From a virus, in IMG/VR virus record IMGVR_UViG_3300021356_000148, positions 1 to 25,799 of that record: a DNA stretch of 25,799 nt, one strand, 5' to 3'. This document shows, in pieces, positions 22,876 to 25,799 of the stretch. The position numbers and the translations under genes were made by a program. Within the stretch, counting starts at the first letter, position 1. Each line of letters opens with the position of its first letter. The notes beneath the pieces were generated by a model, which was not told where the DNA came from, ran no database searches, and saw nothing but the letters and a program-made list of their open reading frames with translations.

Positions 22876-23592
22876 ATGGCGTTACCGCGATTGAATACCC
22901 CAAAGTATAAGGTAAAATTACCTTCTACTGGAAAGGAAATTAGTATGAGACCATTTTTGGTCAAAGAAGAAAAGATTTTAATGATTGCTTTAGAGTCTCA
23001 AGATGTTGAACAAATATCTGAAGCTGTAAAAAATATCATTATGTCTTGTTATGGATTAGATGATTTATCAGAACTTACAGGTTTTGATATTGAATATCTT
23101 TTCCTACAATTACGTGCTAAGTCTGTAGGTGAAATAATAAGCTTACAAACTAAGTGCCAAGATGAAAAATGTGGTGGAGTTACTCCACTTGAAATTAATA
23201 TAGATGATATTGAAATAATTAATAAAGAACAAGAAAGAACTCTATTACTTGATGACGATTCAGGTGTAGGTGTAACTTTAAATTATCCATCTTTAGAAAG
23301 CATTGCTAAGCTAGATTTAAGCGAAGAAAGCAAAGTAATAGATGTTATAATGTCTTTAATTGTTGAATGTATTGATACTATATTTGATAATGATAATGTA
23401 TATGATGCACAAAGCGAAGGTAAAGATGAAATACTTGCTTTCTTAGAAAGTTTAAGTAGTGAGCAGTTTGGAAAGGTTCAAAGATTTTTTCAAGAAGCTC
23501 CAGCAGTATACTATAAACAAGATGTTAGTTGTGTAAAATGTAATAATGAAAACACAATAGAACTAAGAGGGCTTAATAATTTTTTTACGTAA
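22876..23592 (+). CDS. 26: gp26-family baseplate hub/tail assembly protein (short product)
   Basis: 238 residues. The N-terminus (LPRLNTPKYKVKLPSTGKEI, then RPFLVKEEKILMIALESQD) and the helical segment DLSELTGFDIEYLFLQLRAK are typical of the T4 gp26/gp51 baseplate family (Pfam T4_baseplate, from memory). Four cysteines, C94-x4-C99 and C219-x2-C222, suggest a zinc site tying the middle to the C-terminus. Good AGGAGA ribosome-binding site. The frame ends LNNFFT-stop, with a seven-T run at 23580-23586 immediately before the last sense codon. A -1 shift on that run would join 237 residues of this protein to a further 68, giving about 305 residues. In T4 these proteins help build the baseplate hub; here it lies before a tape-measure-like gene, as tail-assembly chaperones do. 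Confidence 0.82.
   Translation: MALPRLNTPKYKVKLPSTGKEISMRPFLVKEEKILMIALESQDVEQISEAVKNIIMSCYGLDDLSELTGFDIEYLFLQLRAKSVGEIISLQTKCQDEKCGGVTPLEINIDDIEIINKEQERTLLLDDDSGVGVTLNYPSLESIAKLDLSEESKVIDVIMSLIVECIDTIFDNDNVYDAQSEGKDEILAFLESLSSEQFGKVQRFFQEAPAVYYKQDVSCVKCNNENTIELRGLNNFFT
23580..23586 (+). other. Candidate -1 ribosomal frameshift site (T TTT TTT)
   Basis: In the gp26 frame the heptamer falls as T TTT TTT, the canonical X XXY YYZ register. The -1 frame has a TAA at 23577-23579, and the zero frame stops at 23590-23592. The two frames therefore overlap over only about 10 bases, and the slippery heptamer fills most of that window. Confidence 0.7.
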
Positions 23593-23792
23593 GCCTATCG
23601 CATGAGAGTCTGAAAAACTATTATCAGACAAACTTTGCGTTAGTGCAACATCATAAGTATAGTTTAACTGAAATAGAGGATATGATTCCTTGGGAAAGAG
23701 AAATATATTTAGCTCTTTTACAAGATCATATACAAAGAGAAAATGAACAAATACAAGCCGCTAAGCGAGCGAATAATAGAAGGAGAAGATAA
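23580..23792 (+). CDS. 51: gp51-like C-terminal extension, probably made by -1 frameshift from gp26
   Basis: The -1 frame opens at 23580 and reads YVSLSHESLKNYYQ from 23586, then TNFALVQHHKYSLTEIEDMI and PWEREIYLALLQDHIQ, ending in a basic AAKRANNRRRR (68 residues after the slip). The SLTEIEDMIPWEREIY core resembles, from memory, the short gp51-type hub-assembly protein annotated in marine T4-like phages. The frame has no ATG, GTG or TTG before this core and no Shine-Dalgarno. The first GTG (23643) and the ATG in EDMIPWE would cut into it. Expression by frameshift from the gp26 gene is therefore the simplest reading. Its TAA overlaps the next ATG (TAATG). An alternative is a homopolymer sequencing error splitting a simple fusion gene. 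Confidence 0.7.
   Translation, partial: FFYVSLSHESLKNYYQTNFALVQHHKYSLTEIEDMIPWEREIYLALLQDHIQRENEQIQAAKRANNRRRR
23608..23629 (+). other. Hairpin downstream of the frameshift site
   Basis: GTCTGA (23608-23613) and TCAGAC (23624-23629) form a perfect 6-bp stem with a 10-base loop. It starts about 21 bases after the slippery run, further than the usual 5-9 bases for a stimulator, so its role is doubtful. Confidence 0.35.
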
Positions 23793-24169
23793 TGGCTGAA
23801 GGACAAGACAACAGCAGAAATGAAGTTGAAATAGATTTAGATAAGTATATGGCTTTAATCGATAAACTCGATCAAGCTGAAGATACTATTAAAGATATGC
23901 AATTGGAAGCAGCCGAAGCGAAGAAAAGACTTGCTCCACCAAAAAGAAAATTCATGGACATCTTTTTAGATGATAATGATGTAAACGAAAAAGCAATTAT
24001 AGGTTTTATATCATTCTTTCTCATGACAGTCTTTGGTGTATGTGATTTAATTACAGCATTTATGGGACAAGACTTAGTTATCTCTGATACAATTTATACA
24101 TCATTTGTTGTTGTGACACTTGGTGCATTTGGTATTAGTGAGGCTGGAAGAGCTTTCGGCGGAAAATAG
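23792..24169 (+). CDS. Two-helix membrane protein with cytoplasmic coiled coil; holin-like or tail-related
   Basis: 125 residues. Residues 12-48 are a charged helix (EVEIDLDKYMALIDKLDQAE, then DTIKDMQLEAAEAKKRL) that predicts a coiled coil, followed by a PPKRK basic turn. Two hydrophobic segments follow: about 68-91 (AIIGFISFFLMTVFGVCDLI) and about 100-116 (TIYTSFVVVTLGAFGIS). The small size, two membrane helices and basic junction suit a holin-like protein. However, it lies between a tail-assembly chaperone and the tape measure, and no endolysin is next to it, so it may be a minor tail or membrane-interacting protein. Strong ribosome-binding site (AAGGAGA); its ATG overlaps the gp51-like stop. 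Confidence 0.7.
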   Translation: MAEGQDNSRNEVEIDLDKYMALIDKLDQAEDTIKDMQLEAAEAKKRLAPPKRKFMDIFLDDNDVNEKAIIGFISFFLMTVFGVCDLITAFMGQDLVISDTIYTSFVVVTLGAFGISEAGRAFGGK

Positions 24170-24180
24170 GAAAGAGTTAA

Positions 24181-25799
24181 ATGGCAGAAGACGATAAAAG
24201 AGACGCTGATAAGCAGCGTAGAGGTCTTAAGAGAAACAATCAAGAATCTACTCAAAGTGGAGGTATTTCTTCGTTAACAGCTTTAATGGAGGCTAATAAT
24301 AAGTCTGCATCTGAAGTTGAAAAGGATGGAAGAAATACAAGAAGACATTTATTAGAAATTAAAAAATTAAATGTCGAAATGCTTAATGTACAAAAAAGTA
24401 CGTTATTAGGTTTTGAAAAGTTTTTTGAAATTATGGACACTCGTGATCTTCAAGGCCAAGAAGAATCAAGTGAAAGATTAACTCTCTTTCAAGAAATAAA
24501 AGATTCACTATCAAAAATTGCTGATAATACTGCCTCTACAGGAGGTGGAGATGGAGGTAATAGACGTGGTGGTGGATTCTTAAGTGGTTTAGGTGTAGGA
24601 GCTATAGGAGCTGTTGGTGGAATTGCAACACTCGGTTTAGCTATACCAGCATTCTTTGGCGCAATGCAAGCTGGTGAATATGGCTTAGACGCTTTAAATA
24701 CAAATTTTAATTTTGAAAATATCAAAAAAGCTGCTTTAGGATTTACAGATATAATAACAGAAATTCCAAAAGAAGGTTTAATTACACTCGGTGGATTACT
24801 TGCTGTCGCAACCTTTAGTGGTAATCCATTAAAGACTGCACTTGGATTTTCATTACTTGGTGCTGCAATACCTGGTTTCTTTGGTGGTTTACAAGTTGGT
24901 GAATATGGTCTAAGTGCTTTAAATGCAGATTTTAATTTCGAAAATATTAAAAAAGCTGTTGCAGGGTTTGTTGGAGTAATAGGAGAAGTACCAAATAGTT
25001 TAGATGGTGCAAAAGTCGCCGGTCTTCTAGGAGTGGGAATTTTACTTGGTGCAACAAAAGGAGTTAAAGGAGCAGGAGGCGTTGCAGCAGGAATGGCAGC
25101 AATGGGACTTGGTATTTCTGGTTTCTTTGGTGGTTTTGCATTAGGTGAATACGCTATTAGTAAATTAGGTGATATTGATTACACAGGAATTAAATCTGCT
25201 GTAAGTAATTTTGATGAAACAATACAAAGTATGTCAGGTGAAGGCGAAGCAAAATTTATTGCTTTACTCGGTGCAGGAGGTCTTTTAGGAGTTTTAGGTG
25301 GAGTTGGAAAATCATTTAATGTAGCAGCATCTATGACAGCTCTTGGTGCAGGTATTGGTGGTTTCTTTACGGGTTTTGCTGGAATGGCAAAACTTGGTGG
25401 TATGATTGGTGTAGATGGTTCTAATGCAAAAACTTTATTGACTAACTTTAGTGAAGGTATTGCTGCTCTAGATCAAAACGCGTTTAAATCATTAGCTGCA
25501 GTAATGGCCATAGCTGGAGTTGCTGCATTATTTGGTGGTGCTGGAGCTGTTGCAGTTGGAATAGGTTCAGCACTTATTGGCGTAATAGGAGCAGGTATTG
25601 CATCGTTTTTCGTTGCATTTGATGGCATGGCTGCTTTAGGTGGTGTTTTAGGAGTAAATGGTAGTTCAACTAAATTATTAATGTCTAATCTTGCAGATGG
25701 TCTTAATGCTTTAGGTACAGTAAATGTAGGTGAGAGTAGTATGAAAGCCGTTGCAGGTGGTTTAATGGCTTTAGGTCCAGCATTACTAGTATTTTTAGG
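24181..25799 (+). CDS. Tape-measure-like hydrophobic repeat protein, 3' end outside window
   Basis: The frame is open from the ATG at 24181 to the window edge (539 complete codons). Residues 1-125 are hydrophilic and helical (KDGRNTRRHLLEIKKLNVEM), followed by a Gly-rich hinge (GGGDGGNRRGGG, about 121-132). From about 135 onward the protein is strongly hydrophobic and Gly/Ala-rich, with about 75-82-residue repeats centred on a xxGFFGG-type core followed by GEYGL-like residues. Length, helical repeats, hydrophobicity and position right after the frameshifting chaperone-like gene fit a tail tape measure. In T4 that role is gp29, but I see no convincing gp29 identity. Good AGGAAAGAG ribosome-binding site, 11 bases after the preceding stop. 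Membrane insertion of the repeats during DNA entry is possible but inferred. Confidence 0.75.
   Translation, partial: MAEDDKRDADKQRRGLKRNNQESTQSGGISSLTALMEANNKSASEVEKDGRNTRRHLLEIKKLNVEMLNVQKSTLLGFEKFFEIMDTRDLQGQEESSERLTLFQEIKDSLSKIADNTASTGGGDGGNRRGGGFLSGLGVGAIGAVGGIATLGLAIPAFFGAMQAGEYGLDALNTNFNFENIKKAALGFTDIITEIPKEGLITLGGLLAVATFSGNPLKTALGFSLLGAAIPGFFGGLQVGEYGLSALNADFNFENIKKAVAGFVGVIGEVPNSLDGAKVAGLLGVGILLGATKGVKGAGGVAAGMAAMGLGISGFFGGFALGEYAISKLGDIDYTGIKSAVSNFDETIQSMSGEGEAKFIALLGAGGLLGVLGGVGKSFNVAASMTALGAGIGGFFTGFAGMAKLGGMIGVDGSNAKTLLTNFSEGIAALDQNAFKSLAAVMAIAGVAALFGGAGAVAVGIGSALIGVIGAGIASFFVAFDGMAALGGVLGVNGSSTKLLMSNLADGLNALGTVNVGESSMKAVAGGLMALGPALLVFL
24643..25799 (+). repeat. Tandem ~80-residue protein repeats in the tape-measure-like gene
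   Basis: Repeat cores are at residues 155 (IPAFFG), 230 (IPGFFG), 312 (ISGFFG), 392 (IGGFFT) and 473 (IASFFV), so spacings are 75, 82, 80 and 81. The first two units are closest, sharing GEYGL, DALN/SALN and NFNFENIKKA. The array continues past the window. Confidence 0.8.

Follow-up and report, generated by a model that had tools for sequence, protein, structure and literature searches.

How is a conserved coding sequence translated that overlaps the end of a gp26-family gene in the -1 frame and has no usable start of its own? The question is raised by the 25.8-kb record fragment analysed (25,799 nucleotides at full length, below called the window), which on direct reading carries on its plus strand a gp26-family ORF of 238 aa at 22876-23592. 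The phage, a marine T4-like one, very probably draws two tail assembly chaperones, one short and one long, from these frames by programmed -1 ribosomal frameshifting; slippage itself, and its rate at the junction, we infer from sequence.

Reading frames at the gp26 junction

The 3' end of gp26 reads AAT TTT TTT ACG TAA at 23578-23592, giving a protein that ends NNF-FT-stop. The slippery heptamer, T TTT TTT in X XXY YYZ register, occupies 23580-23586 (+), a TAA at 23577-23579 (+) shuts the -1 frame directly 5' of it, and the zero-frame stop TAA at 23590-23592 (+) follows 3 nt 3' of it. The -1 frame downstream of the slip, FFYVSLSHESLK..., encodes a domain (TAC-C, 23587-23789, +) without a usable start codon that is recognized by phrog_634 and by the T-domain profile; it comprises 68 codons counted from the TAC at 23586 and ends at TAA 23790-23792. 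The first-pass annotation, made from the letters of the window, had given the NNFFT ending, the heptamer and its register, the upstream TAA and the 68 residues exactly as direct reading has them, and its short and long products of 238 and about 305 aa agree with the ORF and with the predicted fusion of 237 + 68 = 305 aa.

On the proposed mechanism most ribosomes would complete gp26 to yield the 238-aa short form, TAC-N, while a smaller share, their P and A sites occupied by TTT TTT, would move back by one base on T TTT TTT, read on in the -1 frame and add the 68-residue C-terminal domain to yield a TAC-NC of 305 aa. The slip rate would probably be increased by an RNA hairpin downstream and perhaps by the Shine-Dalgarno-like AGAGGG upstream. 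If lambda gpG/gpGT is a guide, the tape measure protein may be coated by the N-domains and joined to the long form through the C-domain while the tail tube is assembled.

A run of seven Ts also invites the explanation that the true gene is a plain fusion misread by sequencing or assembly, or that the tail is a decayed remnant, homopolymer runs being error-prone in some chemistries. The eighth T that a plain fusion would need, a point raised by the first-pass annotation, is not there: an independent, nearly identical contig (L004, gp26 98% identical) also has seven Ts, and the -1 relation is general among relatives not of the T4 type. An error of this kind is hardly credible, given the identical -1 relation in independent metagenomes and cultured phage genomes, the junctions with six Ts and a C, and the strong conservation of the tail domain.

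The gp26 body, the C-terminal domain and their T4 counterparts

The short form (TAC-N, 22876-23592, +) is identified as a tail assembly chaperone from PF12322 (E 3e-62), from the gp26 family phrog_150 (E 5e-67) and from an AlphaFold2 model. The phrog_150 profile runs on across the junction, with gp26 on profile positions 5-233 and the tail on 233-279, and the tail in addition matches phrog_634, "baseplate hub assembly catalyst" (E 1.1e-27). Because of this match and of the continuation of phrog_150 into it, the -1 tail is, on profile homology, genuine coding sequence.

Phage T4 itself distributes the same parts differently. T4 gp26 is matched by PF12322 over its whole length and by phrog_150 to position 235, the C-domain being absent; T4 gp51 is matched by PF12322 over residues 1-201 and by phrog_150 over 13-280, and its C-terminus is a phrog_634 domain (residues 147-246, E 1.2e-23). 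In 12 T4-type loci the T-domain profile has its match, in frame, at the C-terminal end of gp51, and comparison of the gp26-family and T4-type gp51 profiles gives a probability of 96.9 (E 1.6e-10) with an alignment that ends at the FF junction. T4 gp51 being a gp26-like body with the C-domain in frame and T4 gp26 the body only, the two are, to judge from these profile matches, the long and the short chaperone, encoded by two divergent genes. The label "gp51-like" once given to the tail thus holds for its homology to T4 gp51, but only with regard to the C-terminal domain, and T4 itself uses two genes. In one T4-type locus (L225, at ~2861) gp51 is interrupted by a frame break halfway through the N-domain, away from slippery sites, the probable cause being an error of sequencing or a genuine indel.

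The gp26 model has a pLDDT of 87.3, and a fold search of the PDB placed the HK97 tail assembly chaperone 2ob9 at the top by probability (0.60), a match that is weak at E 1.5 (TM by target 0.49, rmsd 4.0); matches in the viral library were other gp26 proteins. The model of T4-type gp51 has its sole very-low-confidence segment at 206-210, just past the junction, and separate helices thereafter. Sequence searches of solved structures with the gp26 and T4-type gp51 profiles, and a fold search of T4-type gp51 against the PDB, returned nothing relevant. Function of gp26/gp51 as tail assembly chaperones is strongly suggested by homology together with synteny.

Conservation of the slippery heptamer

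IMG/VR scans and annotated phages yielded 226 loci, including as L001 the stretch of the window itself, and the tail domain lies in the -1 frame of gp26 in 214 of the 214 loci other than those with a T4-type gp51. Among 168 distinct junctions the in-register heptamer is present in 152 and missing from 16, all 16 of which match Ackermannviridae gp26 best. The proposed check on relatives, whether the heptamer is kept, therefore came out in favor of the frameshift: T TTT TTY with the tail in -1 stands in 152/152 distinct canonical, non-Ackermannviridae junctions, as TTTTTTT in 62 and as TTTTTTC in 90, and the zero-frame stop falls exactly one codon past it (10 nt from the heptamer start), as in the window, in 120 of them. 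The heptamer-bearing junctions include those of the Kyanoviridae isolates P-SSM2, S-T4 and Mosig, Straboviridae of Vibrio, Aeromonas and Cronobacter, and phages of Caulobacter, Rhizobium, Stenotrophomonas, Delftia and Nitratidesulfovibrio. The outcomes named beforehand as contrary, a plain fusion or the lack of a slippery run, are absent from the 152 canonical junctions but do occur in outgroups, and only there: in T4-type phages gp51 is a gene of its own that encodes the fusion in frame, and the Ackermannviridae are without the canonical heptamer.

When the 152 heptamer junctions are grouped into 113 clusters at 80% aa identity, NNT TTT is observed in 113/113 clusters against 48.3 expected from each gene's own synonymous codon usage. 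The nominal log10 p of about -49 assumes independent clusters and is overstated by kinship, although the direction is not in doubt. Even GC-rich phages retain the slippery codons, e.g. TCT TTT TTC in L048, where the expected probability is 0.018. On these codon comparisons the slippery codons are under selection and kept against codon usage. The junction arrangement is neither chance nor sequencing error.

The seven consecutive Ts of the window would also suit slippage of RNA polymerase on the T run, by which mixed mRNAs would give an identical fusion product. However, in 90 of the 152 junctions the run stops at six Ts and a C follows, which favors slippage of tandem tRNA-Phe but is ill suited to slippage during transcription, and the strict codon register of the run, like the downstream hairpin, fits translation better; a polymerase origin is accordingly very improbable.

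Start codons in the -1 frame

The C-domain might instead be translated on its own as a small protein, with ribosomes either initiating internally or terminating and reinitiating at the stop of gp26. Some relatives do have an ATG close to that stop, the gp51 of P-SSM2 is annotated from 2 nt after gp26, and stop and start overlap at the gp26 end in Cr30, QD01, PhiW-14 and Ps15. In the window, however, the first ATG, GTG or TTG of the -1 frame is the GTG at 23643, which lies inside the conserved core and has no Shine-Dalgarno-like sequence seen upstream of it, much as the first-pass annotation had said in describing a frame that lacks both start and ribosome-binding site. The check it proposed, whether the missing start is kept in relatives, also came out in favor of the frameshift: a start-type codon within the first 12 codons after the heptamer occurs in 43/152 junctions, against 49% of equal gp26 blocks. 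Because they are rarer past the heptamer than in gp26, and starts near the junction are thus not enriched, there is, on codon counts, no selection for an independent C-domain start. Separate initiation would moreover leave the invariant heptamer unexplained, and in T4-type phages the C-domain exists only fused to a gp26-like body; we give this explanation very little weight beside programmed -1 frameshifting.

RNA elements around the heptamer

RNA downstream of the heptamer is predicted to be more stable than same-frame synonymous-codon shuffles, with a mean z of -1.70 over 112 clusters, 66% of which fall below -1. For the segment 23587-23660 of the window the MFE is -17.8 kcal/mol (z -3.42), and the predicted fold is an extended stem-loop at 23593-23646 (+) that starts 6 nt after the heptamer and encloses a smaller hairpin. 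The enclosed hairpin, at 23606-23631 (+) with arms 23606-23615 and 23622-23631, emerges from the clade alignment by covariation, and its core pairs GTCTGA (23608-23613) with TCAGAC (23624-23629). Among the 29 sequences of the window's clade, A1 (alignment columns 27-36/43-52), double-changed cells number 36, where shuffles give 12.3, and the covariation score is 0.367, with no slid version above 0.171; in several of the pairs the third position of one codon is matched with the first position of another, CTN/TTR leucine switches among them. The covarying hairpin begins ~21 nt past the heptamer, further than is usual for a stimulator. The outer stem of the extended stem-loop, which would give the standard spacing, was considered as a conserved element and rejected for want of covariation support.

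In the sister group the hairpin of the window's clade is unsupported and was rejected as an element there, another hairpin taking its place, namely a weakly supported GCCTCT/AGAGGC stem that begins 6 nt after the heptamer. An Rfam search of the junction gave only sub-threshold chance matches.

Upstream, 7 nt before the heptamer, the Shine-Dalgarno-like AGAGGG at 23567-23572 (+) is a possible, weakly supported stimulator, put forward from the position of its AGG and from anti-Shine-Dalgarno pairing. An AGG begins 12 or 13 nt upstream of the heptamer in 101/113 clusters, a position dictated in part by the protein motif [KRE]G. Anti-Shine-Dalgarno pairing exceeds that of synonymous shuffles over all clusters (Wilcoxon p 2e-6); at the window junction alone it is not significant against synonymous shuffles (p ~0.5). 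The downstream hairpin probably raises the slip rate, and the upstream AGAGGG perhaps does so as well. Taken together, the conserved heptamer and -1 frame, the scarcer start codons, the selected codons and the stable predicted RNA folds support the original reading of the locus as a programmed -1 frameshift.

Genes downstream of the junction

The frameshift had been placed just ahead of the tape measure gene, and a putative tape measure does lie downstream, but as the second ORF. The first is a conserved ORF of 125 aa at 23792-24169 (+), with relatives in 43 loci, which starts at 23792 in a TAATG overlap, is preceded by AAGGAGAAGA and gave no family match in profile searches. It has a hydrophobic stretch in its second half and is kept in the window's clade. 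The long ORF at 24181-25797 (+), cut by the window end, is on position and length taken as the putative tape measure: its positional counterparts, complete in close relatives, measure 557-670 aa, near the length of T4 gp29 (590 aa). Comparison with T4 gp29 and with the tape measure annotated in Cr30 detected no homology, and profile searches gave no family match. Near-repeats of ~70-100 residues in this ORF (FFGAMQAGEYGLDALNTNFNFENIKKA... / FFGGLQVGEYGLSALNADFNFENIKKA...) suggest that its length varies through duplication of repeats.

Relation to known systems

The slippery heptamer of lambda is G GGA AAG. The arrangement at the window resembles that of lambda gpG/gpGT in having two frames ahead of a tape measure gene, here a putative one, a -1 slip on a heptamer, here a predicted one, and a short and an extended chaperone; unlike lambda, the window has T TTT TTT, and its 125-aa ORF separates the chaperone from the putative tape measure. 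T4 gp26 and gp51 resemble the window locus in that both match PF12322 and phrog_150 and that gp51 carries the C-domain of the window, but in T4 these are two divergent genes with an in-frame fusion and no frameshift, whereas the tail in the window is in -1. By inspection, no second gp26-like ORF is found among the ORFs of at least 60 aa in the 25.8-kb fragment. The chaperone locus of Vandenendeviridae/Andersonviridae (phage Adele, PMC12846349) is alike in arrangement, with a conserved -1 frame that opens at a T-rich site and a tail routinely annotated as a separate hypothetical gene, but its motif is GTTTTT and the phage family is a different one.

The first-pass annotation had known of no such system established for T4-like phages. 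One is on record: the tail assembly chaperones of T4-like phages were identified by Vladimirov, Gautam and Davidson (Virology 2022;566:9-15), as cited in PMC10885494 and PMC12846349. The former paper (PRFect) cites that work for T4-like phages with one short and one fused long chaperone gene, and the latter for polyT -1 frameshift signals in the TAC-N genes of T4-like phages. As represented in these citing papers, the principle has been known for T4-like phages since 2022, and the present system is of the same kind. No frameshift account specific to cyanophage or pelagiphage gp26/gp51 was found in the open-access literature. New in the present analysis are the breadth in marine phages, the covarying hairpin and the divergent Ackermannviridae junction.

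The Ackermannviridae junction and a possible evolution of the signal

In the Ackermannviridae and relatives (L089, L093, L096, L100, L199-L216) there is no X XXY YYZ heptamer and the C-domain is still in -1. All 16 distinct junctions of this type read T TTC NNN stop, mostly ATT TTC ATT TAA, and most are without a start codon right at the stop, which suggests, on junction sequence, a reduced, single-tRNA slippage site. The putative stimulator also differs between lineages: in the window's clade it is the covarying hairpin at ~21 nt, and in the sister group the GCCTCT/AGAGGC hairpin at 6 nt. A possible, if doubtful, evolutionary reading is that the frameshift was ancestral in T4-like phages, that the Ts are fixed while the stimulator turns over by clade, and that two lineages left the canonical signal, the T4-type phages by duplication and fusion and the Ackermannviridae by reduction to T TTC NNN stop. 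If true, T TTC NNN stop would imply single-tRNA -1 slippage in the Ackermannviridae.

Annotation of the locus

Deposited "gp51" often begins at whatever codon is available, or is omitted. The S-T4 gp51 annotation begins ~50 nt late, the annotated C-domain of Mosig is a 45-codon ORF, and in Aeromonas AS-szw and Cronobacter S13 the C-domain is left unannotated. Among deposited records it is also found truncated, called "hypothetical protein" or missing, e.g. in L003, L085, L090, L094 and L100. The fusion is matched in 788 phage records, and in 623 of these the match covers 80% or more of it.

Because a system of this kind had been reported from T4-like phages in 2022, according to the papers that cite that work, the gain here is one of breadth and detail and not of new principle. 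The comparative set drawn from these loci is a large resource for frameshift sites and RNA stimulators, and the reading is corrected for a locus in hundreds of phage genomes, many marine ones of which mis-annotate it as two genes. In marine T4-like phages, gp26 and "gp51", which carry the annotations baseplate hub protein and hub assembly catalyst, would be a single chaperone gene with two forms.
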